Assembly: GCA_001602455.1 (NCBI GenBank)
Contig: CP012157.1
Span: forward strand, 2,103,733 to 2,167,732
Reading direction: 5' to 3'
Length of the DNA stretch: 64,000 nt
Origin: Betaproteobacteria bacterium UKL13-2
GTDB lineage: Bacteria > Pseudomonadota > Gammaproteobacteria > Burkholderiales > Usitatibacteraceae
Part shown: positions 25,977-61,511 of the stretch, piece after piece
Numbering within the stretch: the first letter of the stretch is position 1
Layout of the letters: every line of letters begins with the position of its first letter
The notes under the pieces: generated by a model
The model's input: only the letters and a program-made list of their open reading frames with translations
Told to the model about the DNA's origin: nothing
The model's database searches: none
Made by a program: the position numbers and the translations under genes

Positions 25977-25977
25977 A

Positions 25978-26007: not shown

Positions 26008-26245
26008 TTACTAAAACGCGACTGTTCCGCAAAATGCGGCTGTCTTTCAAGCACAGGACGAGGAGGCTGCGCGGCAGACTCCTCGTGCGCGATCGCAATT
26101 TCTCGCAATTTCTCGCAATTTCCATTACCTCCTGCTCGATACTTCCGGCCGTTTTTCTTGGAGCACGACGGCTGGCGGCAATCGTGTCGGTGTGGGATCG
26201 CGAAAAAAGCCTTTCACATTCCTCTCACCACCGGAGCCCACCATC

Positions 26246-27223: not shown

Positions 27224-27759
27224 CGGCTGAGCGAGCACACGCGGTGGCCGATGCCAAGACCGACCACGCCGACGCGAAGCGTGCGTATGAAAGCGGGGAC
27301 GATGTCTGCCGGGTATTCTGGAAGATGCTCGCCAGCGGTTACCAGCCGACGATTGAGATCGGCGACTGAAAGAGGCCCAATCGGCTGGCGAGAGACTGCA
27401 GTCCAGCATGGCGTCAATGATGGGGTTCGAATGAAGCCTCCCTACATTGAGAGCCCACCAGCCGACACCCGCACCTACAGCACAGGGCACACCGCTTAAG
27501 TTTGCTTTTTACCGGACTGTTCGCTACCATGCGCCCGGCGGCGATTCACTACCAATCGATGAGCGGCGGCAGGTCCGAGCGGGTCATCTTCCCGCTCGCC
27601 CTGATCGGATTCTGGCTACTACAGGCGACCCTTGGAGCCCACCCCTGAAGCCCACATCGGCCACGACCGCGATTACTGCGTGAGCGTGCGGAACTTCTCA
27701 GCACTTCGCAGCACTAAATCGCCTAGAACAGCTTTTTAATCATAAAGGAGACCACCCGC
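27224..27759. other. 536-bp gap between permease and TonB receptor with short frames of doubtful status
   Basis: No convincing gene. Two short plus-strand frames have protein-like text. The first, GTG 27202 to 27369, contains KTDHADAKRAYESGDDVCR and overlaps the permease end. The second, ATG 27529 to 27648, contains SERVIFPLALIGFWLLQATL, one hydrophobic helix. They may be remnants of decayed genes. The receptor's Shine-Dalgarno sequence aaaggaga lies at the right end, 27744-27751. Confidence 0.35.
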
Positions 27760-30801: not shown

Positions 30802-30843
30802 CCGACTCCATGCACCTCACCTGCGGCCGCATCCTGTTGATTT

Positions 30844-30868
30844 CCGTCTCTCACTGAGAGACGGTTTT
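30844..30868 (+). terminator. Terminator after the TonB receptor
   Basis: The stem ccgtctct/gagagacgg with a short loop is followed by tttt, 42 bp after the receptor stop. Confidence 0.7.
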
Positions 30869-30897
30869 CATGCAAAAGCGAGCCACAGGAGGGGGCG

Positions 30898-31035
30898 TTT
30901 TGTTTGTTGGCGGAGCGGAAGAATCCTTTTGCGATGAAGCCGCAAAAGCCGCAAAAGCCACTTCGCGCCCTGCATGGCGCTCAGATTCGTGAGGCGCAAA
31001 ACATGAAGCAGTTCATGTTTTGTGTCCCCACTCAG
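30898..31035 (+). repeat. Structured ~105-bp repeat, copy A, with tmRNA-3'-end-like left flank
   Basis: From gaatccttttgcgatgaag (~30926) to gtccccactca (31035) it is nearly identical to 42139-42243, apart from a 9-bp internal duplication (ccgcaaaag twice). It contains three possible hairpins: cttttgcg/cgcaaaag, gcgcc/ggcgc and aaacatgaa/ttcatgttt. The left flank ttttgtttgttggcggagcg (from 30898) resembles the sequence downstream of and including the 3' end of tmRNA (42330-42358), with mismatches. Confidence 0.7.
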
Positions 31036-31039
31036 GTCT

Positions 31040-31299
31040 CTCCAGCCTTGTACCAGTCCATACATCCGCTGCCACAGCATGTCGTGGATGCTGTGGGTGA
31101 TCGAGGAGGGTTCGCGTGGATCGGTATTGGCTTGTGCGGCGGCACCGGTCAAAGCCAGCCGCTGATCCAATTTGGCTAGCAACATCACGCCGCCATCACT
31201 GTTCATGTTGCCGCCATCAAAGCGGCCTTCAATGACGCGTCGCCCAAGACGGCCGAAGTCGAGTCACGTCGACGGTAAAGCTTCGGTACAATTTGGCAT
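31040..31299 (-). pseudogene. 5' remnant of an IS1380-family transposase
   Basis: From the ATG at 31299 the minus strand encodes MPNCTEALPST, an in-frame TGA, then LDFGRLGRRVIEGRFDGGN, NSDGGVMLLAKLDQRLAL, DPREPSSITHSIHDMLWQR and YGLVQGW. This is the standard N-terminus of IS1380 transposases. After WRDL the frame runs directly into repeat copy A, so the remaining ~350 codons are missing. Another open frame starting at 31206 is the part after the TGA. It is a different transposase from the one at 23520-25061. Confidence 0.8.
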
Positions 31300-31442
31300 C
31301 GGCGTTGCTCCTCTTTTGTGTGTTGATTTGATACCTCCATCATGGAAGAGATATGAGTCAACGCCGATTTCTTTTTACAACTATGGTGAAATATTCGGGC
31401 TAATACGCTCGGTGCGCCTGATTTTCTATTGGAGACTGACTG

Positions 31443-33074
31443 ATGCGATTTGCGAATAGTCCTTGTTTCTGGGTGGTAGTTTTCTTGCTGCTACCGAGCA
31501 CTGCCAGTAGCCAAGCGATTTCAGCGACCCTGATGCACGACCGCGCGGTCGCCGCAGTTGAGCGACCACTACCCGGCCTAGCAGACGTGTTGGGTGCAGA
31601 GCCGACCCTGCGTGCGTCACCCGTGTTCGTGATTAGTCGCTTCGACAATACCGGCGATACGGGAGATAGTGACTGGGGTGCTGCTGTGGGCTGGGCTCTC
31701 ATGAATAGCATATCCGGACAATTTGGCGAGCTTGCTGTCATACCACCATACCAATCAGCGGAAGATGCAGCCACCAGAGGAGGTGCGGCTTTGACGGGCA
31801 GCGCGGCACTTAGCCTTTCTGCGAAGAGAACAGGGGCCGGCTTTGGATTGAGCGGCTCGATTCGCGTCGTAGATAGTCGGTTTGAGTTCCGCATGGATCT
31901 CTTCGAGTTTCCCGCTAACCATGTGAAACTTTCGACGACCAAAATCGGAGTGCTTTCTGCGTTGCCCGAAGCTCTGCAAGCGGCCGCGCAAGAATTGATT
32001 GAGCAAGCGGTCTTGGACTCGAGCGGGCAACGGTCGAGCGGAAAAGTTTTGACGCCGAGGCTCTCCGAGCTGACCGCGTTGTCCCGCGCGTTTGCGAAAC
32101 AATCGACATATAGCGCCCGCGAGTTGGCGGAAAGATATGCCACACTCAGCCGTGAGAACGAGGCTTCAGCTTCTCTTAACCTTCTATATCTGCAAGCACT
32201 TAACAGCCTTGCGGATCAGCGGCGCATGAGTGCAGCGGTACAAACAAAGATGCCGACCGCTCGCCAACGGCAGGAGCCCGCAGAAATCTATTCGCGGCTG
32301 TTACGTAGCCAATACAACCATGCCGGGATAGATGCAAGCTCAATCCTACATCTATCAAAGACGATCTTAGAGAATCCGAACAACATCGGCGCATGGTTTG
32401 CATTGACGGATGCCTACAATTCCGAAAACGTTATGTACCAAGACGACGAACGCGGAGGGACTTATGTAATTTCGGCAGCGATTGATCACCATCTAGGTAC
32501 GGCAAACGCCATAACGATTGCGCTGGAAACTTTGCGCCGATGGCCAGATCATTATCGGAGCTGGTCCACATTGGCCACGAGCTTGGCAGTGTACGCTGGA
32601 CTTGTGAGAGGCACAGCCTACTGGAATGAGATCCCCGAGGATGCGCGCACACGTTACCGAGCGATCATGGAAGTGGTAGAAGATTGTTTGCGAACGGCGA
32701 TTCGCAAGCATCCTGATCGTGGAGAGCTTCACCGAGCAATGATTGACCATGATCTGCGCGCTGGTCGAGATTGGATGGACTCATTTCGAGTCGCAGCGCA
32801 ATTGACGCCGCATTCCAAACGGCTTTACCAAACTGCGTTTAACTATGCGCGCCCGCAGTGGGGTGGTACCAAGGATCAACTAAAAGAGATATATGCGACG
32901 TCCGTGAAAAACAATCCGGGCGAAACTTGGCCTCAGATGCTGAGAGAAGAATGGGCGCCTGAAATAGTGCCGTGGATCGATCTCGAAAAGCCGCTTGTTC
33001 GCTATACGCTGATATTCGTGGGTTTGGTGCTGTTCGTCATTGTTTGGCAAGTACGGAAGCAGCGTCGAAGTTAG
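31443..33074 (+). CDS. Exported TPR-type protein with TolB-N-like domain and C-terminal membrane anchor
   Basis: 543 residues. A signal peptide ends near STASSQA. Residues ~58-180 (FVISRFDNTGDTGDSDWGAA, then GFGLSGSIRVVDSRFEFRMD) resemble the TolB-N/FlgO-like domain often placed before TPR repeats in signalling proteins. The middle is helical with TPR-like stretches (DASSILHLSKTILENPNNIG, AWFALTDAYN). A single membrane helix near the C-terminus (YTLIFVGLVLFVIVW) is followed by a basic tail KQRRS, so the bulk is periplasmic. Function unknown. It lies inside the repeat-bounded segment but is convergent with the kinase/helicase operon, so a link to it is uncertain. Confidence 0.75.
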   Translation: MRFANSPCFWVVVFLLLPSTASSQAISATLMHDRAVAAVERPLPGLADVLGAEPTLRASPVFVISRFDNTGDTGDSDWGAAVGWALMNSISGQFGELAVIPPYQSAEDAATRGGAALTGSAALSLSAKRTGAGFGLSGSIRVVDSRFEFRMDLFEFPANHVKLSTTKIGVLSALPEALQAAAQELIEQAVLDSSGQRSSGKVLTPRLSELTALSRAFAKQSTYSARELAERYATLSRENEASASLNLLYLQALNSLADQRRMSAAVQTKMPTARQRQEPAEIYSRLLRSQYNHAGIDASSILHLSKTILENPNNIGAWFALTDAYNSENVMYQDDERGGTYVISAAIDHHLGTANAITIALETLRRWPDHYRSWSTLATSLAVYAGLVRGTAYWNEIPEDARTRYRAIMEVVEDCLRTAIRKHPDRGELHRAMIDHDLRAGRDWMDSFRVAAQLTPHSKRLYQTAFNYARPQWGGTKDQLKEIYATSVKNNPGETWPQMLREEWAPEIVPWIDLEKPLVRYTLIFVGLVLFVIVWQVRKQRRS

Positions 33075-33165
33075 AGGGATCGTAAACAGCATGCGCCAGG
33101 TTCAAATTCAAATCCGCATTTCACATTTGAACCGCCGTCCGCAATTTTGTCGACCACTTGCGATG

Positions 33166-34404
33166 TCACACAGACGCCTGACCCGTAGTTGAAGCAATAA
33201 AGGTTTCGTCTTTCGTTCGAAGCGACACCTTCTTTATCTCTTCTAATGAAAACCCAGTTTCAGAAGTTCGGGTCGAGAGTGCCTCGAAAAGTTGCTCAGG
33301 GTTTGACTGTCTCTTGATCTTCATTTCTGTGATTACCTGGTCAATAAACCTCAAAACAATGACATCGCGCTCAAGTTTTGATCCACGTCTTGCCAGTAAC
33401 GACAGGGTGCGCCCCCTCAAGATACGAGGAAATCCAGGTACTGGCCGCGCAAGAAGACTTCCAGCAGCAACATGCAATGGGTAAAGCCGACCCGCAACCT
33501 TTTGTTCAAAGAACCTGTCATCGCAACCTGACAAAGTGAATACTGGGTTGCTGTTGGAATCAAGCTCACCCTGGCCATCCAAAACCAATCCAATCCTCTT
33601 CAATTCCTCTGCCAGGGCTCGAACGACCTGAACGGGACTACTGGCAGGGTACCCAAGAGGTTCGAGCAAGCCGAGGACATCGCTTGCGCTGAGCCAGTCC
33701 ACCTTGCCGTGCGAAAAATGAAGTTCCACTTTTGTTTCCACACCTAGCTTGAACAACAATATTTCACACTCAAGAAACTTGGGCTTTTCTGACTGCGCAA
33801 GGACGCCGCAAATCTCAATCGCCTCCTCCGGGAGGTTTACTGCACGCTTGTTTGGTATGGACCCCAAATTAAGGTGCGACAGGGTTATTTCAGAGCTCTC
33901 CCTGATTAGGTCAGGAACAAATCTAGACCCTCTCAGTTGCGAGGGATCTATCGTCGGCATCAAGTAGAGCTCCCGAGGCACCAACCTGCCAGAAAGCCCG
34001 CAAAGGAGAATCACACGATCCGTTTCGAGCACCTCTGCGCCGTGCGCAATTGTTAGCTTACCGAGTTCACTAAGCATGAATTTGGTTGCATGCATGGAAT
34101 CTTGCGAAAGCAACCCTCTTCCTGATAGCTCATGAAGAATAGGAACTAGCTTTTCTTCTGGGAAACCAATGACAAATGCAAATTCCGCTTGATCGGACAC
34201 GCCATGGCCAGCAAACCGGAGAATGTGCGATTCGAAATCCCCCAGCTGCTCACGACTCTTTTCCCGTATACGGACGACAATCTCAAGAACCGGATACAAA
34301 GCCTGTTGTTGATAGATCACCGATCCGCCTTGAGCAGAGATCCGGTCAACGACAGACCGAACGCGCGTACGTGGAGAAATCGGCTTTTTGGACGTCTGAT
34401 TCAT
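33166..34404 (-). CDS. Unrecognised protein with winged-helix-like N-terminal part, last gene of the kinase/helicase operon
   Basis: 412 residues from the ATG at 34404, two bases after the helicase stop; the frame extends 11 codons further into the helicase. I do not recognise the family. Residues ~50-115 (ESHILRFAGHGVSDQAEFAF, then PEEKLVPILHELSGRGLLS and KFMLSELGKLTI) read like a winged helix, with a helix, a turn, a recognition helix ending RGLL, and a strand-turn. The rest is mixed alpha/beta without known motifs. No membrane helix or signal peptide. Tight spacing shows it is translated with the helicase, so it is a likely sensor, adaptor or DNA-binding partner. Confidence 0.75.
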   Translation of the reverse strand: MNQTSKKPISPRTRVRSVVDRISAQGGSVIYQQQALYPVLEIVVRIREKSREQLGDFESHILRFAGHGVSDQAEFAFVIGFPEEKLVPILHELSGRGLLSQDSMHATKFMLSELGKLTIAHGAEVLETDRVILLCGLSGRLVPRELYLMPTIDPSQLRGSRFVPDLIRESSEITLSHLNLGSIPNKRAVNLPEEAIEICGVLAQSEKPKFLECEILLFKLGVETKVELHFSHGKVDWLSASDVLGLLEPLGYPASSPVQVVRALAEELKRIGLVLDGQGELDSNSNPVFTLSGCDDRFFEQKVAGRLYPLHVAAGSLLARPVPGFPRILRGRTLSLLARRGSKLERDVIVLRFIDQVITEMKIKRQSNPEQLFEALSTRTSETGFSLEEIKKVSLRTKDETFIASTTGQASV

Positions 34405-34406
34405 AC

Positions 34407-37400
34407 TTATTTGGATTTTGCCAAGTCGGGCAGCCAAGCCGACGCATCAATCAATTGGCCGTGCTTTTGAACAAACGACCGAAGCTGAGCCATTGCGTCC
34501 TTGAACTCAGCGTCACGACGCCCAACCTTTGATGGTTTGGCCAATGTGGAGAAGTCTCCAATCATCACCAGTTGCCGCTTTGCCCTTGTCATAGCAACAT
34601 TCAGTCGACGCCAATCGGCAAGAAACCCGACCCCACCATTTGGGTTGGAGCGCGTAAAAGTGAAGACAATCAGATCACGTTCTTGGCCTTGATAGCTGTC
34701 AACAGAGGCAACCAATTCATTTATGGGTGACGGTAAGCCGAGCAATTCGCCAGCGCGCTGGCGGGCGGAGATTGCACGTTGAATTTCCTGTACATGCAAC
34801 TTATAGGGAACAATAACCCCAATTTCCCGTCTCTCACCTAAATCAGGCGACGAGCTCAACGCCCGCCCCAACACATCCAAGACTAATCGCGTTTCAATCA
34901 CGTTGCCAATCAGTTCATCCCGATCATCTCCGCGACGTGAACTCTCTTGCCTAACGTGCATAGGCAATTTCGATGTATCTATGAAAACCATAGGGCTGCT
35001 GAAAAAACTAAATAATGGTTTCTTCTCAGCCATGCCAGCACCGGCAAAATATTTATTTTCATAAAACGCTGCGGATATGTAATCACTGATTACGGCTGGA
35101 CACCTGAATTGTGTATTCAGCATGGCCTTGCGGTCTTCCGGGGCAGAATCCCACAACAATTCGAACCAACTCTTCTTCAAGAGCTTGGTATCAATGTCTC
35201 CACTATCTGCTTCTGCCCGTGACGCTACTTCGTCAACCAACTCATCTTTTACAACCGGCGGAAGCTGCTTGTGATCCCCCACCAAGATGGCCTTCGGCGC
35301 GCGTGACAAGGGAACCGATAAATTGTGCAACTGTATTTGTCCCGACTCGTCAACAATTACAACGTCAAACAAAGCCTCCTTAAAAAATTTGTTTGTATTG
35401 ATACCAATACAAGTGGCCCCGACAACATCAACAAAATTCAAGAGAATTGAATACAAGCCTTCCTGACGCTGATTGGAAATAGTCTTATGCCATGCGGTTG
35501 CCTCGTGTACAACTCGAACAAAGGACTCACGAACTACTGCCAACTGGGTCAGCTTTACTTTTCTTAGGGTCTCGACACTGCCCAACAGCTGCTGATACTC
35601 ACTATTCAACTTACCTTGGACTGAGCCATGCTCTGCTTCAATTTGAGCTAGCAGCGCCACTGCTTCTCTAGTGACGGCGTCCACTTTATCGGTATAACGC
35701 TTCTCGGCCGCTGCCAATTCGGATTCATGCTTCGCAATCAAGGCCCGTTTGCGGCGTGAAACCCCCCATGCCGCGATGCTGTACAAAGGCTTCAATAAAC
35801 CGCTCTTCTCACTAAGCTGTTGCTTGCGATCATCCAAAGCTTCACACTGGGTTTGATGAACTGCGCCAAAACTTTCAACTTCCGTTTTTCGGTCTTTTAC
35901 TAGTTTTGAAAGTAGTGCTGTCTTTTGATCTTCAACACCCAGCGAATTACTCTTCAGTTCATTCGTTAACTGCTCAAGCCGAAGGGGTATCGCAGTTAGC
36001 CGATCGTGATAAGTCCGCAAAACACTGGTCGAAAAAACGTTTTCCCCAACAACCGCGTGGGTGAGAAATCCTTTTAAATCGCCAAGCTTTTCAAAAGCGA
36101 ACTCCTGAAGCCGATCGAGACCGTCTGCAAATCCATCCACACCGTGTCCCATGGCATTTCCTGAGACTTCCATAGCAATGCACATTTTTTCAAAGTGTGC
36201 CAACAACGAAACGTTTCGCTCCAGTGCGTCAACAAGCCTTCGCTGCAGGCTGGATGCACAGTTGTCAATCAGTAGATCGTGAACGGATGAACTTACGGTT
36301 CCTTCACTGCCAAGTCGGACACAAGTCAACTTGCGGTTCTCTGCGAGTCGCTCCAATACGTTATCTACGGCCTTGTTATTCTGCGAACTTATCAAAATTC
36401 GCTTCCCTTGAGACGCGAAAAACTCAACCCACCGCAAAATAACGGTCGTCTTTCCCGTCCCAGGTGGGCCAAGAACGAGCATGTAGTCATCTGTTCCAGC
36501 GCCTGCGTTGATCGCAAGCAACTGAGAGGGATTTGGTGGATTCTTAGCAGGAGGAATAGGAACCGAAATGGTTGGTCTATTCGAATGTACGTAACTCTGC
36601 GCCGCCAGAGGTACTAACCAACGGTTAGGAGACAGTCGCTGTCTCAAGTTTTCTATGACTTGCAGCCTGACGTTTTTTTGAGTTGGATTTGCAAATAGCA
36701 CCAAAGTACCTGTATCGGGAATTGCTCCCGACGCAAGTTGCTCCCCAGTCGAGACAACGATCTGATGTATTCCTCCATTGGGTGCCAAATCATCGACACG
36801 AAACTGCAAAAGACGCTCGCCAACGGCTCCCTCAAGTGCCAACATACCTGGTGCCAGCGCCCTTAGTCGCTTGCAATCGGACTCCAACAAACGAAGGCGA
36901 AAATACTTCCGAACACTTGCAACCCGCTTCTCTGGCGTGACCTCTACGAATGCGAACCCGGCAATCGCACGTGCCTCTTGTTCTTCCAGGAAATACTCGG
37001 CCTCTACATAGGTCTCAAGCGTATGAAGGAGGTTTTCCTCAGTTTCAAGCAATGGCGTCAATGGCTCGTCTTCCTCGTCGGCTCGATGCTTCCCTTTTCC
37101 AACCTCGGGGGCTTGCTTTGCTTCAAGTGAGACAAGTTCTGTGGCGAAGCGCCCGCTGGAGTAAACGCTGTCACGATCCGTGAAGTCGCGAAAAAATGCA
37201 TCAAACGTGGTCAATGCAATGCCTCTGTGCTCTATCCGAACACCCTGCACAAGCATTGTTCTCCGCATGCTGTTATTTGCGAATTTAATGCCTGACTTGG
37301 TTAAATTGACCCTTAAGGTTCCTTGCCCGCTTTGATTCCGCTTGCACACCGTCTGGATCATGTACCTACCGACAAGAAAATTCAAAAAGTGACCGCCGCC

Positions 37401-37622
37401 TCCATCCATAGGTTTGATGGAAACATATGCGGACTTACTAGCTGACAATTCCGCCTTGATCTCCGACCATGAGGGAAAGTTTCCTCCAGGCCACTCAGTT
37501 CGTTGGTCATAGTCTTCACCACGAATGATTGGTATGACGAAAGATAGCTGAACAATATCTTGAGGCCTCCAAAACTTTAGTGTTCCAGTCGTCGGTATCA
37601 ACTTGGCGTCAGATGTGCGCAT
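34407..37622 (-). CDS. UPF1-like superfamily 1 helicase with coiled-coil insert
   Basis: 1071 residues. Residues 1-360 are an N-terminal region I do not recognise. The helicase core has Walker A GPPGTGKT (385-392), motif Ia ISSQNNKAVDN, motif II DES (VVIVDESGQ, 758-760), motif III VGDHKQLPP, motif V VASVDSYQGQERD (971-983) and motif VI RLNVAMTRAKRQ. This order and the AAA_11/AAA_12 style place it with UPF1/DNA2/Nam7-type SF1B helicases. Between motif Ia and motif II is a ~300-residue insert rich in charged helices (about residues 540-720), probably a coiled coil like a DNA-clamp arm. It lies 37 bp downstream of the kinase gene. Confidence 0.9.
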   Translation of the reverse strand: MRTSDAKLIPTTGTLKFWRPQDIVQLSFVIPIIRGEDYDQRTEWPGGNFPSWSEIKAELSASKSAYVSIKPMDGGGGHFLNFLVGRYMIQTVCKRNQSGQGTLRVNLTKSGIKFANNSMRRTMLVQGVRIEHRGIALTTFDAFFRDFTDRDSVYSSGRFATELVSLEAKQAPEVGKGKHRADEEDEPLTPLLETEENLLHTLETYVEAEYFLEEQEARAIAGFAFVEVTPEKRVASVRKYFRLRLLESDCKRLRALAPGMLALEGAVGERLLQFRVDDLAPNGGIHQIVVSTGEQLASGAIPDTGTLVLFANPTQKNVRLQVIENLRQRLSPNRWLVPLAAQSYVHSNRPTISVPIPPAKNPPNPSQLLAINAGAGTDDYMLVLGPPGTGKTTVILRWVEFFASQGKRILISSQNNKAVDNVLERLAENRKLTCVRLGSEGTVSSSVHDLLIDNCASSLQRRLVDALERNVSLLAHFEKMCIAMEVSGNAMGHGVDGFADGLDRLQEFAFEKLGDLKGFLTHAVVGENVFSTSVLRTYHDRLTAIPLRLEQLTNELKSNSLGVEDQKTALLSKLVKDRKTEVESFGAVHQTQCEALDDRKQQLSEKSGLLKPLYSIAAWGVSRRKRALIAKHESELAAAEKRYTDKVDAVTREAVALLAQIEAEHGSVQGKLNSEYQQLLGSVETLRKVKLTQLAVVRESFVRVVHEATAWHKTISNQRQEGLYSILLNFVDVVGATCIGINTNKFFKEALFDVVIVDESGQIQLHNLSVPLSRAPKAILVGDHKQLPPVVKDELVDEVASRAEADSGDIDTKLLKKSWFELLWDSAPEDRKAMLNTQFRCPAVISDYISAAFYENKYFAGAGMAEKKPLFSFFSSPMVFIDTSKLPMHVRQESSRRGDDRDELIGNVIETRLVLDVLGRALSSSPDLGERREIGVIVPYKLHVQEIQRAISARQRAGELLGLPSPINELVASVDSYQGQERDLIVFTFTRSNPNGGVGFLADWRRLNVAMTRAKRQLVMIGDFSTLAKPSKVGRRDAEFKDAMAQLRSFVQKHGQLIDASAWLPDLAKSK

Positions 37623-37659
37623 AGATCTGTTTTGGAGTGGGAATGAAAATCAACCGAAT

Positions 37660-38526
37660 TTATGAGAAGTATTTCCGTTGAACATTCATGACTGCAGCCT
37701 TGAACTGGGATGAGTCCTGGTAGCGATTCTTCGGGTTGTAGTTCATCGACTTCAACAACACACCCTGCAATTCATCAATACCGGGAATTCGCGATTCGTT
37801 CGCCGACAATCGACAATCCAACCCACCCGCCCAATCCGTAACCGTATCGTTGGGGAACCGGAGTAACGGTGCGCCAGTAAATAAAAACCAGCCGACTTGA
37901 CCCATTCCGAACACATCGGTTGCGGGGCTAAGGTTGAAGTCACGCCGTCCAGCCTGCTCCGGCGATTGATAGTCCAGTGTTCCTTCTTCTAAAACTCGCT
38001 TTACCGCGCTTGATCCAAAATCAATTACAGCCACGCCATCCCTCGGAGACCTTCGATTTCTCAAAAGCATGTTTTGCGGCTTTATGTCACGGTGAATGAA
38101 TCGAGCCTGATGGATTCTCTCAATGGTTTTGGCCATTTCAACAATCATTGCTACTCGGAGAGAGAAACTCTCCCGATCAAGTGCAGGCTCTCTTTTGGTG
38201 ACATCATCGAAAGTATCCCCGTCCATCCAGTCCATGAAGATGTAGGTAAAACCTTGTCGCGCGAAAATACTGCGGAAACGGGGAAGTAGGGAAGGCAGCT
38301 GAACTTGCCGATTTAGTGCTACCAGTTCCGTGTGAATTGCACGAGAGTCATTCAAAGAATCGTCAAAAACTTTCATGGCATATTGAAGGCCATCTTCTTG
38401 ATTCTTGACTTGATAAAGGGCCCTACCCGTGGTGTTAATGGCGTTATAGATTGTCTTGACAATGTGAACCGTATGGGATTGAGTCCACTCCAGTGGCTGT
38501 CCGACCCTCAAATCAATCATCGCCAT
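37660..38526 (-). CDS. Ser/Thr protein kinase with intact catalytic residues
   Basis: 288 residues (or 286 from the inner ATG at 38520, which makes an ATGA overlap with the upstream stop). All key positions are present: the Lys of the VAIK strand in YAMKVF (K52), the catalytic loop HRDIKPQNMLL (H145-D147), the DFG motif in VIDFGSS (169-171), the SPE variant of APE (188-190) and DVFGMG with the conserved Asp. The glycine loop is poorly conserved. It is a soluble eukaryotic-type (Hanks) kinase without an extracellular domain. It follows the NERD/pseudokinase gene directly, so the fusion protein or the helicase is a likely substrate. Confidence 0.92.
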   Translation of the reverse strand: MAMIDLRVGQPLEWTQSHTVHIVKTIYNAINTTGRALYQVKNQEDGLQYAMKVFDDSLNDSRAIHTELVALNRQVQLPSLLPRFRSIFARQGFTYIFMDWMDGDTFDDVTKREPALDRESFSLRVAMIVEMAKTIERIHQARFIHRDIKPQNMLLRNRRSPRDGVAVIDFGSSAVKRVLEEGTLDYQSPEQAGRRDFNLSPATDVFGMGQVGWFLFTGAPLLRFPNDTVTDWAGGLDCRLSANESRIPGIDELQGVLLKSMNYNPKNRYQDSSQFKAAVMNVQRKYFS

Positions 38527-40595
38527 TTCTCGACTACTTCCACTAACTTGCTTCCAACAGGCCTACGACTCGGATCGAAAGCAAGGATGCTGGACATCGA
38601 GTTCTCTTCATCAGGGTCAAAGCCACAATGCGTACTTACCGAAGCCCAAAACCCCGCTTTGGCCATTTTCTTTTGTTGCTCTGCTGGAGACGCATATGGC
38701 AGCGACGCATCAGCCGATAGAACGAAGCAAGCCAATTTACCAAAGCTATATACATCGGCCGAAGGACTCACTTGACGTCCAGCTACTAGAACTTCCGGCG
38801 ATTGATAATGGGTGTCAAGTAGCGCTCGCGCGTTCTGTGCAATGGTCGCTGAGCTTTGCAACTTGCAAAGTTCAAAATTAATGATGATGTGTTCACCTTT
38901 TTCGTCCACGCGAAGGTTGGACGGAGTCAAGGCCCGATGAACAACTTCTTCTTTGGCAAGAATACTTAACGTCTTGGCGATGTCCAACAAGAGCCTCAAA
39001 CGTTGCTCGCGTGAAGGATTGGTGTTGCGAAGCCAGTCGTCAAGTTTCTCGCCAGCAATGTGATCTAACGCAACAAAAAGACTCCCAGGTTCATCCCAAG
39101 CATCCAGAGCTCGTTGAATATGCTGACTCACGGGCAGATCTTGTGACGCTGTCAGTTCCCGACGTAAACGGTCTATCTCGCTTTCAAGCCCGTCGCCCCT
39201 ATCCATTGAAGTTAAGGGATATTCCTTTATCCACACCATTCGATCTTTGCCCTGGACGTTACCCAGATACACCTTGTAAAAACTGTTTGACTCACTCTCC
39301 AGTGCAATGGGACGGTACGTGAAGCGGCCATGCTGCCTCAAGGCAGTTGTTGATACTCCTACCGGCAACGAACGCGTGAGGTGCATAACAATCTTTTCAA
39401 TCTCCTTTTGACTAATGATTGAGGGCAGCACATTGGGTAGCGGACGACCGGTCACATTCGCTAACTTGGAACCAAGTGTCGACTGATGAGGCCCAGAATT
39501 TGGCTGTTGAGGTACAAACCGCTGCATCTTGGCTTTTATCGCGGCGGCCATTGACTCTGGTGTGCAAACGATGACGTCTCCCAAGTCTCTTGGTAAAGGT
39601 CTTGTTTTTGACTCATAGTCAATACTGTGCACATTGACATTGGGATTTGTGAACACAACTACCCCATACGCCCGTGCCGCCTTTTGAAGGGGTGTACCCC
39701 AGTCAAACCTTTGGAAGTTACTTCTCAATAGCCCCATTAATTGCGCGATTGGGTTTTTCCCATCCAACGGCTCAACACGGTTACCGCGAACTCTGGACAT
39801 TTTTGTATTTTGCGAATTCTCTGGTAGCGTGATTTGCCCCCAATGGTCTTTGAGTTCCAAGACGAACAACCCCCACGGGCTTACCAATATCCCGTCCGCC
39901 ATATTCGAAGAATGGACCCCCTGGAAGTATTGCCCGCCAACGATTTTGAACCCATCAAAAGTGGGGTCTCGAAAGAGGCAGTCGGCAACTCTCGAAAGCC
40001 CCCTTTTTTCATGATCCCGTTCTTCTTGAGAACCTGCAAAAGGGTTGTACGTCCAATTGCTATTGACATAGCTCAAAGTTGACTCAAAGGGAAATGCGAG
40101 CATTGCCCAATCGTCGCAGCCTGAAACTCTTTTACCCAGCGCGGCCAAGTCGTCTTCTGACCGCGAATTCTCAAGGGTTTGCGCCCCAATGCCTTTGAAT
40201 TCGGCGCCAAACCCAGTGGCAGAGGCAAGAAAATACTCGGACGCATTGAGGTTTAATCGGCTCGTTTGAGGCACCAGGGTGGCGGACCGGTCGAGTCGAA
40301 TAACGTTCGATGCGCCAAGTGATTGAACGACAATGTGCCCGGGCTCGCGTTGAAACACTGTCAGCCGCAATTTTTCAGTGCCTTGAGAAGCCGAAGTTTC
40401 AGCTATCGCGACAGCCGCCACTGCACTTAACTGGTCATGGCCATCCCATTGGCACGTGAGTTCCGAGATGAAGTCGGCTGAGTTCTCCAGACGAGTGGCG
40501 TCAATCACAGCCGCAAGGACACCGCCAGGATGTATCCAAGCAGCTTTTCCTGAGACCTTCTTGTCCGAAGTCACCACTTTAAAGAACATTTCCAT
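38517..40595 (-). CDS. PP2C-like / NERD nuclease-related / pseudokinase fusion
   Basis: 692 residues in three parts. Residues 1-170 resemble a degraded PP2C phosphatase: AVIDATRLE, VQSLGASNVIRLD, YFLASATGFG and the closing GCDDWAMLAF, with most metal Asp lost. Residues ~190-330 are a NERD (nuclease-related) domain with the active-site pattern intact: ADGILVSPWGLFVLELKDHW, giving D234, E247 and K249. Residues ~430-690 have a kinase fold with the VAIK-type Lys (VWIKEY, K457), but the catalytic loop is HRALTPSNL (HRD to HRA) and DFG is NFE, so phosphotransfer is not expected. It is the first gene of the operon. Closest architecture known to me is PglW (kinase plus NERD) of BREX type 2. Confidence 0.85.
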   Translation of the reverse strand: MEMFFKVVTSDKKVSGKAAWIHPGGVLAAVIDATRLENSADFISELTCQWDGHDQLSAVAAVAIAETSASQGTEKLRLTVFQREPGHIVVQSLGASNVIRLDRSATLVPQTSRLNLNASEYFLASATGFGAEFKGIGAQTLENSRSEDDLAALGKRVSGCDDWAMLAFPFESTLSYVNSNWTYNPFAGSQEERDHEKRGLSRVADCLFRDPTFDGFKIVGGQYFQGVHSSNMADGILVSPWGLFVLELKDHWGQITLPENSQNTKMSRVRGNRVEPLDGKNPIAQLMGLLRSNFQRFDWGTPLQKAARAYGVVVFTNPNVNVHSIDYESKTRPLPRDLGDVIVCTPESMAAAIKAKMQRFVPQQPNSGPHQSTLGSKLANVTGRPLPNVLPSIISQKEIEKIVMHLTRSLPVGVSTTALRQHGRFTYRPIALESESNSFYKVYLGNVQGKDRMVWIKEYPLTSMDRGDGLESEIDRLRRELTASQDLPVSQHIQRALDAWDEPGSLFVALDHIAGEKLDDWLRNTNPSREQRLRLLLDIAKTLSILAKEEVVHRALTPSNLRVDEKGEHIIINFELCKLQSSATIAQNARALLDTHYQSPEVLVAGRQVSPSADVYSFGKLACFVLSADASLPYASPAEQQKKMAKAGFWASVSTHCGFDPDEENSMSSILAFDPSRRPVGSKLVEVVEKWR

Positions 40596-42840: not shown

Positions 42841-45624
42841 ATGACGCACGCCCACGCACGACAACCCCATTCTTTTGCGCTCAAAATCCTCACGATGGCC
42901 ATATTGGCATCGCTGTCTGCGACCTCGATTGCGCAGGCACCGCCACCCGCTGCGCCCGCACCAGCCGCCGCATCGCCGCTGGCTACCGCCGCAACGCCGC
43001 TGGCTACCGCCGCAATGCCGCCAACATTACGCCCGTTTGCTGAGGTGAGCCGCGATGCCAAGGTGACCAAGGGGATGTTCAACCTGTACCAGAAGGACGA
43101 AAAGGTCTGGATTGAAATCGCGCCCGATCAATTCGACACGCCATTTTATTTTCAGGTCAATTCGACACGCGGTCTGGGCGAAGCGGGCATCTACCCAAAC
43201 TGGATGTTGCGGGGGCACATCGTTGAGTTTAAGCGCATTGGAAATACGGTTCAGTTGATCGCGAAAAACCATCGCGCATCGGCCAAGGCTGGCAGCGCCA
43301 TTGCGCGCGCCGTTAAGGAGGGCTTTACCGATAGCTTGATTGGTGCGACAACAGTGTCGAGCGTGCCGCATGCGGAGCGCAAGTCTGTATTGGTCGATGC
43401 CAACGCACTATTTCTCGCAGATATCGCGGGTACGTCAACACAACTAGAAACGACGTTTCGAATTCAGTATGCATTTGATGCGCGTAACTCAAGCTTCGTC
43501 AACCTTCGCGCGACCGACGACATGGTGGCATTTAACGTGAGTGCGCATTTCGCGATTCCGCGGATTCCGGCGCCATCGCTCACTCCGTCGCCTGTACCAA
43601 TGCCGCTACCGCCAGCGATGCTCGAAGACACCCGCAGTATGTTGCTTGGTTACTACTACACCATCTCGAAGCTGCCAGAGCAGCCGATGCCCATCCGATT
43701 GGCAGATAGTCGCATCGGACATTTCGCACTTCAACGGTGGAATTTCACGGATGACATCTCGCCATTTCCACGTCAGAATTTCGTGTCGCGTTGGCGGCTG
43801 GAAAAGAAAGAGCCTGCCGCTGCAATGTCTGAGCCCGTTCAACCGATCACATACTGGCTGGACAAAAATATTCCGCTGAAATATCGCGAGACCGTGAAAG
43901 AAGGTGTGCTGGTCTGGAACAAGGCGTTTGAGAAGATCGGGTTTAAGAATGCGATCCAGGTTCGTCAGCAGCAAGACACGGACGAGTTTGATAACAACGA
44001 CACACGTCATGCTTCAATTCGTTGGTATGTTGACACCAGTGATGGTGCGCTTGCAATCGGCCCGTCTCGTGTTGACCCACGAACTGGCGAGATTCTTGAC
44101 GCCGATATTTCGTTGTCCGATGGGTGGACGCGCTTGCCGCGCCGCCGTGCCGTTGAACAGTTGAGCAGCGTGGCGATCAATCGATCGCATTCAACCTCAC
44201 ATTCGCACGCTCACACGCATACACATACACACGCACACACACCCGCGGCACAACTAGCAGACCAAGCGCTTCAGCGCGGCCAAATGCCCCAGCTTTGTAG
44301 CGCAGCCGACAGCGCGATGGAGGAGGTAATGTTTGCCCTAGACTTGCTCGCTGCGCGCGGCGATATTGCGCCTGATAGTCCTGAAGCGGAGGCAATTGTG
44401 ATGGCGACGCTAAAAGATGTGGTGGCGCACGAAGTTGGCCACACGCTGGGTTTGCAGCACAATTTCCGTGCATCGGCCATTCACTCGCTCGAACAACTCG
44501 AAGACAAAGAGTTCACCAAGAAAAATGCGCTCGCAGGCTCGGTGATGGAATACAACGCCTTGAACATTGCGCCGAAAGGGCGCAAGCAGGGGGAGTATGT
44601 GATGAGCGGAATCGGTCCGTATGACGAGTGGGCGATTGAATATGCATATAAGCCAATCGATCCTGCGAAGGAGAAAGAGGAACTTCTCAAGATTGCGAGT
44701 CGCTCAAACGAGCCTTTACTGGCATTTGCTAATGACATCGACGCGGGATTGGGGACGGTAGAAGGTATGGACCCTGAAGTCAACCGCCGCGACTTGGGGT
44801 CTGACCCGCTCGCGTTTGCGGAACGTCGGATGTTGTTGTCAAAAGAATTATGGGAGCGATTACAAGAGCGCAAGCTCAAGCCGGGCGAGCAGTATGATGT
44901 TCTGCGACGCAACTTCATCTCGGCTAATGCGCAGATCGCGCTCGCGGCGAACGTCGCGGCCAAGTATGTTGGTGGTGTGGTTCACTACCGCGATCTTTCC
45001 AACAGCACACGCGCACCACTCATACCGGTCGTTGGGTCGAAGCAGCGCCAAGCACTCAAACTCATTTCAGACAATTTGTTTAAGGTTGATAGCTTCCGCT
45101 TCAAACCGGAATTTGTTGCGCGTCTGGTGCCCGATGAATGGGATCGTTGGTTTGACCGCAGCAACGTCGCCGCTGCCGTCAACCCAGATGTGAGTATCAG
45201 CGGCTTGGTGCTCGGCTTGCAACGCACGACGTTGACCCAACTGATGAGTGATCCTGTCGCCGCGCGAATTTTGGATGCACCAAACAAGATGCAGGATGCG
45301 AAGCAGGCGTTCGCTCTTTCAGAGCTTTATGACACCCTGCAGGGCGCGATCTGGAGTGAATTGAGGACGGGCAGCGATATTGGACCGCTTCGCCGCAACT
45401 TGCAACGCGAGCATCTCAAACTGGTGGTTGAGTCGCTGCTCCGCACGCGACCAACCACGCCGGCGGATGCACGCGCCTTGCAACGTGAAAACGCCAGAAA
45501 ACTCGCAGCACTCATTCGCGCCGCGTCAGCCAAGCCGATGAGTAAGGAGGCTAAAGCACACTTGGCTGAAAGCCTAGATACGCTGACCGAAGCCCTCAAA
45601 GCGCCGATGCAGCGGACTTCTTAA
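42841..45624 (+). CDS. Exported zinc metalloprotease (DUF5117/DUF4953-type)
   Basis: 927 residues, start preceded by the strong site aggagg. It has a signal peptide (ILTMAILASLSATSIAQA), then an Ala/Pro linker with the small repeat ATPLATAA. The N-terminal DUF5118/DUF5117 region (WIEIAPDQFDTPFYFQVNST, ITYWLDKNIPLKYRETVKEG) precedes the zinc motif HEVGHTLGLQH (530-540), with the following NFRAS and SVMEYNALN as in metzincin-like proteases. A His/Thr/Ala-rich tract (SHSHAHTHTHTHAHT, ~450-465) is inserted before the catalytic domain, a feature unlike most relatives. Periplasmic or surface location; substrate unknown. Confidence 0.88.
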   Translation: MTHAHARQPHSFALKILTMAILASLSATSIAQAPPPAAPAPAAASPLATAATPLATAAMPPTLRPFAEVSRDAKVTKGMFNLYQKDEKVWIEIAPDQFDTPFYFQVNSTRGLGEAGIYPNWMLRGHIVEFKRIGNTVQLIAKNHRASAKAGSAIARAVKEGFTDSLIGATTVSSVPHAERKSVLVDANALFLADIAGTSTQLETTFRIQYAFDARNSSFVNLRATDDMVAFNVSAHFAIPRIPAPSLTPSPVPMPLPPAMLEDTRSMLLGYYYTISKLPEQPMPIRLADSRIGHFALQRWNFTDDISPFPRQNFVSRWRLEKKEPAAAMSEPVQPITYWLDKNIPLKYRETVKEGVLVWNKAFEKIGFKNAIQVRQQQDTDEFDNNDTRHASIRWYVDTSDGALAIGPSRVDPRTGEILDADISLSDGWTRLPRRRAVEQLSSVAINRSHSTSHSHAHTHTHTHAHTPAAQLADQALQRGQMPQLCSAADSAMEEVMFALDLLAARGDIAPDSPEAEAIVMATLKDVVAHEVGHTLGLQHNFRASAIHSLEQLEDKEFTKKNALAGSVMEYNALNIAPKGRKQGEYVMSGIGPYDEWAIEYAYKPIDPAKEKEELLKIASRSNEPLLAFANDIDAGLGTVEGMDPEVNRRDLGSDPLAFAERRMLLSKELWERLQERKLKPGEQYDVLRRNFISANAQIALAANVAAKYVGGVVHYRDLSNSTRAPLIPVVGSKQRQALKLISDNLFKVDSFRFKPEFVARLVPDEWDRWFDRSNVAAAVNPDVSISGLVLGLQRTTLTQLMSDPVAARILDAPNKMQDAKQAFALSELYDTLQGAIWSELRTGSDIGPLRRNLQREHLKLVVESLLRTRPTTPADARALQRENARKLAALIRAASAKPMSKEAKAHLAESLDTLTEALKAPMQRTS

Positions 45625-45648
45625 GTAAAGGCACGTGTCGATATTCTG

Positions 45649-46428
45649 TTAACCATTCTTCCAGTTGGGTTTACGCTTTTCTAGGAAGGCGTTCACCCCT
45701 TCTTGCTGGTCTTCGAACGTGAACAGATCCATAAACCGTTCGCGTTCTAGTGCCAGCCCCGCCGTACGCGGGATGCCGTTACGCGCATTGTGAATGAGTG
45801 ATTTGCAGAACGATACCGACTTAGGTGATAGCCCTGCCACTCGCTCCGCCATTTTTATGGCGGCGGCGAGTGACGTACCTTTCTCCACCACTTCCTCAAC
45901 CAAACCAATACGTAGCGCTGTTTCAGCGTTCACGCGCTCGTTGGTCAGAATCATTCGTTTGGCCCAACCTTCGCCGATAAGCCACGGCAGGTTTTGTGTG
46001 CCGCAGCCGCCAGGCAGTAAGCCGACCGCTGGTTCGGGCATTGCCATTTGCGCGTGAGATTCGGCGATACGAATGTCGCACGCCAGCGCACCTTCGAGCC
46101 CGCCACCCATGCAATAACCATTGATTGCGGCAATGGTGACAAACCGAGCGTTCATCCAAACCTCAAACGCAGCGCCAAAGGTGTGGATGAAGTGGCGCGC
46201 CGCCATGATGTTCTTTTCATCACCACCCTGGAATCGGTTGAGGTCAGCGCCTGCTGAGAAAAATTTCTCACCTTTGCCGGTGAGGACAGCCGCATAGATG
46301 TTGTCGTCGGCTTCGAGCTTGTGCGCGAGGTCTTTGAGTTCGCTGAGCGATTCAGGCGTCCAAGTATTAACGGGTGGGCTGTTCAGTGTGACCACACAGG
46401 TGTGGCCGATGATCTTTGTCTCAATCAT
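45649..46428 (-). CDS. Enoyl-CoA hydratase/isomerase family protein of the valine pathway cluster
   Basis: 259 residues from the ATG at 46428, preceded by AGGGAACGACGA; the frame extends to 46491. It has the crotonase fold: oxyanion segments FFSAGADLNRF and NGYCMGGGLEGALACDIRI, then EPAVGLLPGGCGTQNLPWLI with the active-site Glu region. By position after mmsB it probably hydrates methacrylyl-CoA or a related acyl-CoA, but the sequence does not fix the substrate. Its first 32 codons with the ribosome site are the start of the tandem repeat array, so the region before the gene holds seven further copies of its 5' end. Confidence 0.88.
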   Translation of the reverse strand: MIETKIIGHTCVVTLNSPPVNTWTPESLSELKDLAHKLEADDNIYAAVLTGKGEKFFSAGADLNRFQGGDEKNIMAARHFIHTFGAAFEVWMNARFVTIAAINGYCMGGGLEGALACDIRIAESHAQMAMPEPAVGLLPGGCGTQNLPWLIGEGWAKRMILTNERVNAETALRIGLVEEVVEKGTSLAAAIKMAERVAGLSPKSVSFCKSLIHNARNGIPRTAGLALERERFMDLFTFEDQQEGVNAFLEKRKPNWKNG

Positions 46429-48045
46429 TCGTCGTTCCCTTTTGTCATTCTGACCGAAGCGCAGCGGAGGAATCTCATCTGGAAGCACCAACGTACATCG
46501 ACGGGATGAGATCCCTCATTGCATTCGGGATGAAAGTGAAAAAATTTGAGTTCGCTGAGCGATTCAGGCGTCCAAGTATTAACGGGTGGGCTGTTCAGTG
46601 TGACCACACAGGTGTGGCCGATGATCTTTGTCTCAATCATTCGTCGTTCCCTTTTGTCATTCCGACCGAAGCGCAGCGGAGCGGAGGAATCTCATCTGGA
46701 AGCACCAACGTACATCGACGGGATGAGATCCCTCATTGCATTCGGGATGAAAGTGAAAAAATTTGAGTTCGCTGAGCGATTCAGGCGTCCAAGTATTAAC
46801 GGGTGGCTGTTCAGTGTGACCACACAGGTGTGGCCGATGATCTTTGTCTCAATCATTCGTCGTTCCCTTTTGTCATTCTGACCGAAGCGCAGCGGAGGAA
46901 TCTCATCTGGAAGCACCAACGTACATCGACGGGATGAGATCCCTCATTGCATTCGGGATGAAAGTGAAAAAATTTGAGTTCGCTGAGCGATTCAGGCGTC
47001 CAAGTATTAACGGGTGGGCTGTTCAGTGTGACCACACAGGTGTGGCCGATGATCTTTGTCTCAATCATTCGTCGTTCCCTTTTGTCATTCCGACCGAAGC
47101 GCAGCGGAGGAATCTCATCTGGAAGCACCAACGTACATCGACGGGATGAGATCCCTCATTGCATTCGGGATGAAAGTGAAAAAATTTGAGTTCGCTGAGC
47201 GATTCAGGCGTCCAAGTATTAACGGGTGGGCTGTTCAGTGTGACCACACAGGTGTGGCCGATGATCTTTGTCTCAATCATTCGTCGTTCCCTTTTGTCAT
47301 TCCGACCGAAGCGCAGCGGAGCGGAGGAATCTCATCTGGAAGCACCAACGTACATCGACGGGATGAGATCCCTCATTGCATTCGGGATGAAAGTGAAAAA
47401 ACTTGAGTTCGCTGAGCGATTCAGGCGTCCAAGTATTAACGGGTGGCTGTTCAGTGTGACCACACAGGTGTGGCCGATGATCTTTGTCTCAATCATTCGT
47501 CGTTCCCTTTTGTCATTCTGACCGAAGCGCAGCGGAGGAATCTCATCTGGAAACACCAACGTACATCGACGGGATGAGATCCCTCATTGCATTCGGGATG
47601 AAAGTGAAAAAATTTGAGTTCGCTGAGCGATTCAGGCGTCCAAGTATTAACGGGTGGACTGTTCAGTGTGACCACACAGGTGTGGCCGATGATCTTTGTC
47701 TCAATCATTCGTCGTTCCCTTTTGTCATTCCGACCGAAGCGCAGCGCAGCGGAGGAATCTCATCTGGAAACACCAACGTACATCGACGGGATGAGATCCC
47801 TCATTGCATTCGGGATGAAAGTGAAAAAATTTGAGTTCGCTGAGCGATTCAGGCGTCCAAGTATTAACGGGTGGCTGTTCAGTGTGACCACACAGGTGTG
47901 GCCGATGATCTTTGTCTCAATCATTCGTCGTTCCCTTTTGTCATTCTGACCGAAGCGCAGCGGAGCGGAGGAATCTCATCTGGAAGCACCAACGTACATC
48001 GACGGGATGAGATCCCTCATTGCATTCGGGATGAAAGTGAAAAAA
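46333..48045. repeat. Eight tandem ~212-217-bp repeats carrying the 5' end of the enoyl-CoA hydratase gene
   Basis: Units begin (tttgagttcgctgagcg) at 46333, 46545, 46762, 46973, 47185, 47402, 47613 and 47830; the last ends next to the mmsB stop at 48046. Each unit holds ~96 bp of the gene start (ATG plus 31 codons), its ribosome site and ~115 bp of palindromic intergenic sequence (ggaatctcatc ... gatgagatccctc). Units differ by a 1-bp deletion (gtgggctg/gtggctg) and by a 5-bp agcgg insertion. Only the first unit belongs to the intact gene. The other starts would give ~71-residue or shorter frameshifted peptides. Confidence 0.95.
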
Positions 48046-48930
48046 TTAGTCTTTCTTGTATAACTTGATGATGCTCGAAAAATCCAACGCGCCATTGCCC
48101 ATTGCCGAATGCATTTGATACAACTGTTGCGCCGCCGCGCCGAGCATCACGGGTTGCTTTGCGGCCTTAGCCGCCTCTGTCACCAACGTCAAGTCTTTGA
48201 GCATTAAGTCCGAACCGAACCCGCCGCTGTAACCGCGATTCGCTGGTGCCGTCGGCACCACGCCGGGGTAGGGGTTGTATGTATCGGAAGACCAGCAACG
48301 CCCGCTAGACGTATTCGCGATGCTGGCAAACACGTTCGGGTCCATACCGAGCCGAGTTGCCAATGCCATGCCTTCAGCGGTGGCGATCATCTCAATGGCC
48401 AGCATCATGTTGTTGCAAATTTTCGCCACTTGTCCATTACCTGCGTCGCCGCAATGCACGATGTTTTTACCCATACATTCGAGGATGGGTTTTGCGCGCA
48501 AAAAGTTTTCCGCAGTGCCACCAACCATAAAGGTCAGTGTGCCGGCTTCCGCACCGCCCGTTCCGCCTGAAACCGGCGCGTCAATCATCGCCAAACCTTT
48601 CCCCATCGCATCCATCGCCACATCGCGAGAGGTGTGGGGGTCAATGGTCGATGAGTCGATGAGTAATGTGTTCGGTGCCGCCGATGCGAGCACGCCGTGT
48701 GCATCCTGATACACCCGACGTACATGTGGCGAGGAGGGCAGCATGGTGATAACGACATCCACGTCCTGCGCGCACTTGCCCGCAGAAGTTGCAGTTTCAC
48801 AGCCAAGATCGGCGAGTGGTTTGACCAATGCGGGAACGATGTCGAATACTTTTAACGCGTGGCCGTGCTTGAGGAGATTCCGAACCATCGGATTCCCCAT
48901 ATTCCCCAGACCAATGAACCCTATCCTCAT
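48046..48930 (-). CDS. mmsB: 3-hydroxyisobutyrate dehydrogenase
   Basis: 294 residues from the ATG at 48930 (MRIGFIGLGNMG); the frame is open to 49002. It oxidises 3-hydroxyisobutyrate to methylmalonate semialdehyde with NAD in valine breakdown. The Rossmann motif GFIGLGNMGNPM, the substrate signature DAPVSGGTGGAEAGTL and the catalytic Lys in NGQVAKICNNMML are present, with a C-terminal KDLTLVTEAAK. It precedes the tandem repeat array and enoyl-CoA hydratase, and follows mmsA and a small membrane protein gene on the same strand. Confidence 0.95.
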   Translation of the reverse strand: MRIGFIGLGNMGNPMVRNLLKHGHALKVFDIVPALVKPLADLGCETATSAGKCAQDVDVVITMLPSSPHVRRVYQDAHGVLASAAPNTLLIDSSTIDPHTSRDVAMDAMGKGLAMIDAPVSGGTGGAEAGTLTFMVGGTAENFLRAKPILECMGKNIVHCGDAGNGQVAKICNNMMLAIEMIATAEGMALATRLGMDPNVFASIANTSSGRCWSSDTYNPYPGVVPTAPANRGYSGGFGSDLMLKDLTLVTEAAKAAKQPVMLGAAAQQLYQMHSAMGNGALDFSSIIKLYKKD

Positions 48931-49020
48931 AAATCGCTCACTTTCGTCGCGATACTGCGTTGCGCTCGCTTGCCGTACGACTTGTACTGTCTGCGCTCGC
49001 ACGCCTTATCTTGCTTGAAA

Positions 49021-49308
49021 TTAAGCAATTTCTGAGGCGCTCGTCTTCGAACTGTCATTCGATTTCTTGCCAGCCTGCTTCCATTCCCGCCATGAAAAAT
49101 ACCAGACGACATATGTACAAACCAAAAAGAACGTGCTCTTGGCGATTCGTCCCCATTTTTCTGAAAACACTGCTATCAATAGTCCATCGATCCAACCGCC
49201 ACGGCTATATGGCGAGAGCGGTTGGTTCGTTGCAAATGTGCCTAGACCAACGATCACCAAGACCAGCGCGAATCCAAAGCCAAGCGATGCGGAAAAGCGA
49301 CTCTTCAT
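49021..49308 (-). CDS. Small membrane protein between mmsA and mmsB
   Basis: 95 residues. Two hydrophobic helices (FGFALVLVIVGLGTFA and FLVCTYVVWYFSW) with a loop, and a polar Lys/Ser-rich C-terminus. It begins directly after the mmsA stop, so it is in the operon. I do not recognise it. Confidence 0.7.
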   Translation of the reverse strand: MKSRFSASLGFGFALVLVIVGLGTFATNQPLSPYSRGGWIDGLLIAVFSEKWGRIAKSTFFLVCTYVVWYFSWREWKQAGKKSNDSSKTSASEIA

Positions 49309-50841
49309 TTACTTCAAACTTATCGTCGTATTTACGCCACCGCTGTTGCCACCGTCCACAGCCGCATCATCAAACCACCTTGCCGTAACCGTCTTCACCT
49401 GCGTATAAAAATGCACCGCCTGTTTGCCGTATGGCCCCAAGTCGCCGAGCTTGGAGCCGCGCGAGCCGGTGAAGCTGAAGTAGGGCACCGGCACGGGAAT
49501 CGGCACGTTGATCCCGACTTGGCCGACGTCAATTTCGTTCTGGAACTTGCGCGCGACTGCACCGGACTGCGTAAAAATGCCGGTGCCGTTACCGTAGGGG
49601 TTGGCGTTGGTGAGCGCAATCGCCTCGTCCAAAGTTGCCACCGACACGATGACCAACACCGGCCCGAAAATTTCTTCCTTGTAAACCGTGTGGTGCGGTT
49701 TCACACCTGAGATCACGGTGGGGGCAATGAAATTCCCGGATGGGTAGCCGTCGATCTTTGGGTTGCGTCCATCGAGGTCAAGTGTGCAGCCTTCTTCAAC
49801 ACCTTTGGCAATCAAGCCTTCGATACGTGCCTTGGCTTGTTTGGAAATCACCGGGCCCACGTCTGTCCCCTTGACGATGCCTGCGTTGACCTTGAGTGTT
49901 TTAGCTTTGGCAACAATGTCGGGAATCCACTTGCCCGCTTCACCGACTAGCACGCCAACCGAGGTCGCCATACAACGCTGGCCGGCGGCGCCGAACGCTG
50001 CGCCCACCAACGCGTTAAGGGCTTGGTCTTTGTTGGCGTCGGGCATGACAATCGCATGGTTTTTTGCACCCATCATGCACTGCGCACGTTTGCCATGGGT
50101 CGATGCTAAGTTGTAAACGTGTTCACCGACATGGCATGACCCCACGAACGAGACCGCCTTCACCATCGGGTGGGTACATAACGTATCGACGGCTTCTTTG
50201 CCGCCGTGGACGACGTTCAGCACGCCGGGGGGGACACCAGCTTCAATCGCAAGCTCGACCAGCAACATTGTCGTCATCGGGTCTTGTTCAGATGGCTTTA
50301 GCACAAAGGTATTTCCGCTGACAATGGCCATCGGGAACATCCACAGCGGAATCATCGCTGGAAAGTTGAACGGCGTGATGCCGACGCAAACACCGATGGG
50401 CTGGCGGATGAAATAGGTATCAACGCCGTTGGCGACGTTCTCTGCCATCTCGCCTAATGACAAGCTACCAATGCCACAAGCGTGCTCGACTACTTCGAGA
50501 CCGCGAAAAACGTCGCCTTCGGCGTCGGGGAGTGTCTTGCCTTGTTCTGCCGTCAAACACGCGGCGAGCTTTTTCATATCGCGCCGAATGAGCTCTTGCA
50601 GCTTAAGCATAATCCGCGCACGTTGACCAATCGGCGCGTTTTTCCATGTCTTGAATGCCTCAGCGGCGGACTGAATAGCGTCGTTGACTTCATCCGCGCC
50701 ACACATTGGCACACGGGCTAACACCTGTTGCGTCGCGGGATTCACAATGTCGCGCCACTGAGCCGCGTGCGACTCGCGCTGTTCACCGTTGATCACGAGC
50801 TTGACGGTGGGGATCGTAGAAGCGTTGGGTAGCGCGGCCAT
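49309..50841 (-). CDS. mmsA: Methylmalonate-semialdehyde dehydrogenase (CoA-acylating)
   Basis: 510 residues from the ATG at 50841, six bases after GAGGAG; ATG at 50847 and an open frame to 50922 are alternatives. It converts methylmalonate semialdehyde to propionyl-CoA with NAD and CoA, the last step of valine breakdown. It shows the aldehyde dehydrogenase features [30 protein letters not shown], the catalytic Cys in [10 protein letters not shown] and EEIFGPVL. It is the first gene of the mms cluster. Confidence 0.95.
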
Positions 50842-50923
50842 CGACATCTCCTCAATTTTCTGGTTTCGAAAAATTATACGCCGCAGGGCGAGAAGGGGGT
50901 ATTCACAAGGACTATTACTCAAA

Positions 50924-61393: not shown

Positions 61394-61511
61394 GTCATTT
61401 CGACCGGAACGTCGCGACGCGACATGAAGTGGAGAAATCTCATCCAGATGTGCGATGGCGTTATTCGGCCAGATGAGATTCCTCACCAAAAGCCGTTCGG
61501 AATGACGAGGA
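61394..61511. repeat. Palindromic GTCATT...AATGAC element
   Basis: gtcatttcgaccgg at the left and cggaatgacgagg at the right are inverted, with gagaaatctcatcc and gatgagattcctc as an inner inverted pair. The same architecture and words occur in the intergenic half of the tandem array at 46444-46544. Confidence 0.6.

Follow-up and report, generated by a model that had tools for sequence, protein, structure and literature searches.

The gap between mmsB and the enoyl-CoA hydratase (ECH) gene, inside an apparent valine operon, is filled in this genome by eight head-to-tail units, each repeating the first 32 ECH codons together with a palindromic spacer. Chance is excluded as an origin of such an array. 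Most probably, the insertion of a palindrome of the REP/MITE type seeded an illegitimate duplication in tandem, which recombination then expanded; the effect on ECH is likely to be incidental and modest. The comparison with related genomes offers a polarised case of three states (no element, one element and eight tandem units), which illustrates the passage from a REP-like insertion to a tandem array with coding sequence inside it. This case, in a genome where one palindrome family has nearly all of its placed copies in clusters, turns the trigger of such amplification into a testable question.

Structure of the array

The window, which is the whole stretch of 64,000 nucleotides analysed here, belongs to a genome assembled as a single contig of 3,387,087 bp. 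The main features of the locus are the following:

45649..46428, minus strand: intact ECH gene, 259 aa, NF006566/PRK09076 by profile match; its first 96 nt lie within unit 1
46333..48047, minus strand: tandem array of eight units of 211-217 bp with a 428-bp higher-order pattern, from TRF and unit spacing
46429..46544, minus strand: palindromic spacer and leader of unit 1, one of the eight copies, adjoining the intact gene and folding as a hairpin (MFE -37.8 kcal/mol, z -2.2)
48046..48948, minus strand: mmsB, 3-hydroxyisobutyrate dehydrogenase, TIGR01692 by profile match; its stop codon abuts the array
49309..50922, minus strand: mmsA, methylmalonate-semialdehyde dehydrogenase, TIGR01722 by profile match; upstream in the same apparent operon

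The profile scores of ECH (393 bits, cut-off 286) and mmsB (438 bits, cut-off 292) exceed their cut-offs, and a biotin carboxylase-type subunit and a second crotonase gene are also found upstream of mmsB. A preliminary description had proposed an eight-unit tandem array here, which was confirmed by TRF (8.0 copies, 96-98% matches, score of at least 3173; period 212, with 428 and 640 also called), although the unit size of 212-217 bp given then has to be widened to 211-217 bp as measured from start to start. It had also been right in extending the array across the whole gap of 1617 nt, from the mmsB stop codon (48046-48048) to the intact ECH start ATG at 46428, and in assigning a start codon, the first 32 ECH codons and a palindromic element to every unit, as alignment of the units with ECH bore out. 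The units start at positions 46333, 46545, 46762, 46973, 47185, 47402, 47613 and 47830 of the window. In each of them ECH codons 1-32 make up the 96 nt on the side of the intact gene, and leader and palindromic spacer the remaining ~119 nt; on the minus strand a unit reads TTTTTTCAC...GACGA, which comprises the spacer and the leader, and then continues with those 96 nt of ECH. Seven distinct sequences occur among the eight units, a 1-nt and a 5-nt indel recur together in 428-bp blocks of two units, and only ~2 nt are common to both sides of the array junction.

Insertion and amplification in related genomes

In the outgroup genomes (L029-L035) the mmsB-ECH gap measures just 1-12 nt, whereas in the closest sister genome (L036/G004) it reaches 121 nt and holds exactly one spacer copy at the same site. 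With no element in the outgroups, one copy in the sister and eight in the window genome, insertion must have come first and amplification later. The sister genome is a draft of ~100 contigs, and a single copy was given weight only at loci crossed by a long contig. The expectation that copy number should vary is supported between species.

Sequence differences also inform about the timing of the process. The sister spacer is 98-99% identical to each array unit (1-2 substitutions in ~116 aligned positions, mean difference 1.4), whereas the ECH part of the units differs from the sister at 10-11 of 96 nt. Within the array, mean differences are 0.4 nt for the ECH parts and 1.25 for the spacer parts. 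As the units are near-identical in an ECH part that is ~10/96 away from the sister, the expansion, or at least the last homogenisation, was recent relative to the sister split. In this regard, the short common sequence at the junction indicates that the first duplication did not take place between existing long repeats, and the indels recurring in 428-bp blocks suggest later unequal exchange of two-unit blocks. Other, different palindrome-like sequences occupy the same gap in two further genomes of the genus (L028/G003 and L112/G001), so the mmsB-ECH junction seems to be a repeated site of insertion.

The high identity of the spacer between the window genome and its sister contrasts with that of third codon positions (60% in ECH, 73% in mmsB), and could mean that the spacer has a function. 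The other element spacers, however, are 88-97% identical to the sister, and the mmsA-mmsB spacer (390 nt), which carries no element, is also 93% conserved. Hyperconservation was consequently rejected as a proof of function and is taken as only suggestive: judged from sequence, it hints at constraint or at local exchange without proving either.

The palindrome across the genome

The 13-base core of the palindrome, GATGAGATYCCTC, occurs at 197 sites in the 3.387-Mb genome, against 0 for a reversed control. Of the 196 sites that were placed, 189 group into 15 clusters with at least four members each and 7 are single, making 22 loci in all. TRF detected tandem arrays in 14 of the 15 clusters, the exception being 2308k; the period with the best score ranges from 125 to 718 bp. 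A contiguous control stretch of 400 kb without clusters holds only 2 arrays with a period of at least 40, and the element is absent from both. Besides this locus there are 14 clusters (32k, 793k, 1709k, 1752k, 1760k, 1780k, 1894k, 1903k, 2043k, 2060k, 2302k, 2308k, 2498k and 2622k). Of these, 13 are tandem arrays, each with a period of its own and most of them wholly intergenic. The array had originally been regarded as a feature of this operon, but 14 tandem arrays, this one included, are built on the palindrome dispersed through the genome. With most of the others lying wholly between genes, there are simpler readings than a tuning role specific for ECH.

Core sites number 18 in the sister genome, and each of the 11 further genomes of the genus has at most one. 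At 1709k, where the window genome has an array of eight units of 291 bp that include 87 nt of a gene's 3′ end, the sister has one copy, as it does at 1760k against ~14 here, in both cases on a long contig. One copy is found in each of the two genomes at 1600k, and arrays in both at 1752k. At the 2060k locus the sister contig C90 ends near the array, so some sister arrays may have been lost or collapsed in the draft assembly.

Some minor observations accompany these loci. At the 1709k array (L150, ~genome 1709470) the adjoining gene end differs from the copies held in the array, which match the sister species; either an old allele was preserved in the array or the flank was replaced. A 12-bp repeat, TTGTTGGCAGAA, occurs within the units of some other clusters. 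Tandem repeats of 252 bp are found in two long ORFs of 1639 and 1249 aa (L022 4461-5461 and L023 7819-10001), each near palindrome arrays, and a palindrome-free tandem array of 141 bp (3.6 copies, 100% identical) lies at genome positions 2898981-2899486 (L177).

Proposed origin of the array

As the comparison of genomes shows, a REP/MITE-type element entered the short mmsB-ECH junction in an ancestor common to the sister genome. In the window lineage, the element together with the first 32 ECH codons would then have been duplicated in tandem, with breakpoints that, as read from the junction, had ~2 nt in common. From that same junction, template switching or slippage at the hairpin is the most likely way for this first duplication. 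Unequal recombination between the copies, including two-unit blocks as the 428-bp pattern suggests, would later have raised their number up to eight. The local array would be one case of a genome-wide process that yielded 14 tandem arrays on the same palindrome. Any effect on ECH is likely to be incidental and modest: ribosomes would encounter seven decoy starts and, as the stop of the final decoy ORF overlaps the true ECH start, translation could be handed over to ECH by termination-reinitiation.

Comparison with known repeat systems

REP clusters reiterated with flanking DNA have been reported in many species (Di Nocera et al. 2013, PMC3733652), and 16 tandem REPIN clusters with flanking DNA are known in P. 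fluorescens SBW25 (Bertels and Rainey 2011, PMC3116915). The array looks like these already described clusters, and no new device is shown by it. In common with REPINs we find hairpin-forming, dispersed and mostly extragenic palindromes in many copies (197 sites against 0, at 22 loci), tandemly reiterated with flanking DNA at many loci (TRF arrays in 14 of 15 clustered loci). Compared with the SBW25 clusters, however, nearly all placed core sites are clustered, the arrays are longer (8 or more units) and one unit includes 32 codons of a gene. Moreover, no RAYT was found adjoining the element, as none of six Y1_Tnp loci has a core site within 1.5 kb. Whereas the GTAG/CGTC REP is a palindrome of 20-40 bp, the present one spans ~100-130 bp with ends GTCATTCCGA/TCGGAATGAC, and no GTAG or CGTC tag was seen at its foot when element sequences at 2150k, 1709k, 1600k and 1760k were read by eye. 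Lacking both a linked RAYT and the tag, the element is not claimed as a strict REPIN.

The MIRUs, in which, according to a review (PMC12548453), an internal ORF is presumably coupled at -4 nt to the gene that follows, are similar by arrangement: a tandem unit between operon genes, at a start codon, with an ORF that ends in a -4 (ATGA) overlap. This 4-nt overlap with the downstream start is present at this locus in both G000 and the single-copy G004. MIRUs belong however to a different phylum and insert regularly at start codons, whereas most other arrays of the present element are away from them, being mostly intergenic or at gene 3′ ends. As in VNTR loci, the number of units differs between genomes, in this instance in a between-species comparison (1 in the sister, 8 here).

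Decoy reading frames and alternative explanations

The array contains seven decoy starts, each repeating the ECH leader and start. In four of the seven decoy ORFs, among them the one immediately preceding ECH, the stop overlaps the following start as ATGA; the other three are frameshifted and stop ~50 nt short of it:

46425..46640, minus strand: last decoy ORF, 71 aa, ATG at 46640, fusion of ECH codons 1-32 with spacer; ATGA overlap between its TGA (46425-46427) and the true ECH start
46853..47068, minus strand: decoy ORF, 71 aa, ATGA overlap with the next decoy start at 46856
47065..47280, minus strand: decoy ORF, 71 aa, ATGA overlap with the next decoy start at 47068
47493..47708, minus strand: decoy ORF, 71 aa, ATGA overlap with the next decoy start at 47496
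47760..47924, minus strand: frameshifted decoy ORF, 54 aa, with 1 nt deleted from the ECH part; ends ~50 nt ahead of the next start
Starts 47496 and 46856, minus strand: same frameshifted decoy type, from ORF reading

Decoy starts, hairpins or promoters had been suggested to change the expression of ECH. The starts and the hairpins are there, but consensus promoters are not: none of these, and no intrinsic terminator, was found on either strand of the array, where shuffled sequences average 1.3 and 2.0, respectively. An Rfam search of positions 45500-49500 matched no family. Termination-reinitiation could, on sequence grounds, keep ECH translated. A selected expression device can be built upon these parts, with repeated leaders, hairpins and coupled leader ORFs setting ECH relative to mmsA/mmsB and copy number acting as the dial. 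It would fit the overlaps, the conserved spacer and the coupling attributed to MIRUs, as well as a mini-ORF, MTKGNDE*, that in the single-copy sister already ends at the ECH ATG. Nevertheless, the ATGA overlap is statistically unremarkable; it follows from a start reading ATGATTG and the spacing of 212, and is plausibly due to chance. Moreover, three of the decoys are frameshifted. No common regulatory arrangement is seen either, with most other arrays intergenic and the one at 1709k including a gene 3′ end. Altogether, we consider a selected device improbable.

Tandem copying driven by a Y1 (RAYT/IS200-like) transposase is a still weaker candidate. The genome does encode six Y1_Tnp genes, and REP arrays have been proposed to derive from circular transposition intermediates (PMC3733652), but the distance of these genes from every core element, the extension of the units into ECH codons, well beyond the palindrome, and the ~2 nt shared at the junction make such an origin very unlikely. 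That one unit was multiplied in the assembly is hardly credible: the genome is a single contig, the units differ by point variants and indels of their own, evidence against an artefact, and similar arrays with different periods occur at 13 other loci. Duplication seeded by the palindromic insertion and followed by recombination is therefore preferred as the origin of the array.

Position relative to the replication terminus

With dnaA at 381k, the terminus is expected near 2.075 Mb. Clusters are closer to this point, opposite dnaA, than would be expected from a uniform distribution (KS p ~9e-5, 15 clusters), although neighbouring clusters may not be independent and, merged into ~8 groups, give p ~0.07 as a rough estimate only; a bias toward the terminus is thus suggestive. 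No dif-like site with 6 or fewer substitutions was found in the window and five nearby stretches. A broader proposal, that the palindrome predisposes its surroundings to tandem amplification, chiefly around the terminus, and that coupled leader ORFs additionally set ECH translation here, strikes us as doubtful in that combined form.

The window itself is located near the expected terminus, and GC skew changes sign within it (around 24000-40000), with GC falling to 0.495 at 32-40 kb. A lone copy of the core, GATGAGATTCCTC, stands at window positions 61472-61484 (genome 2165204), outside any array.
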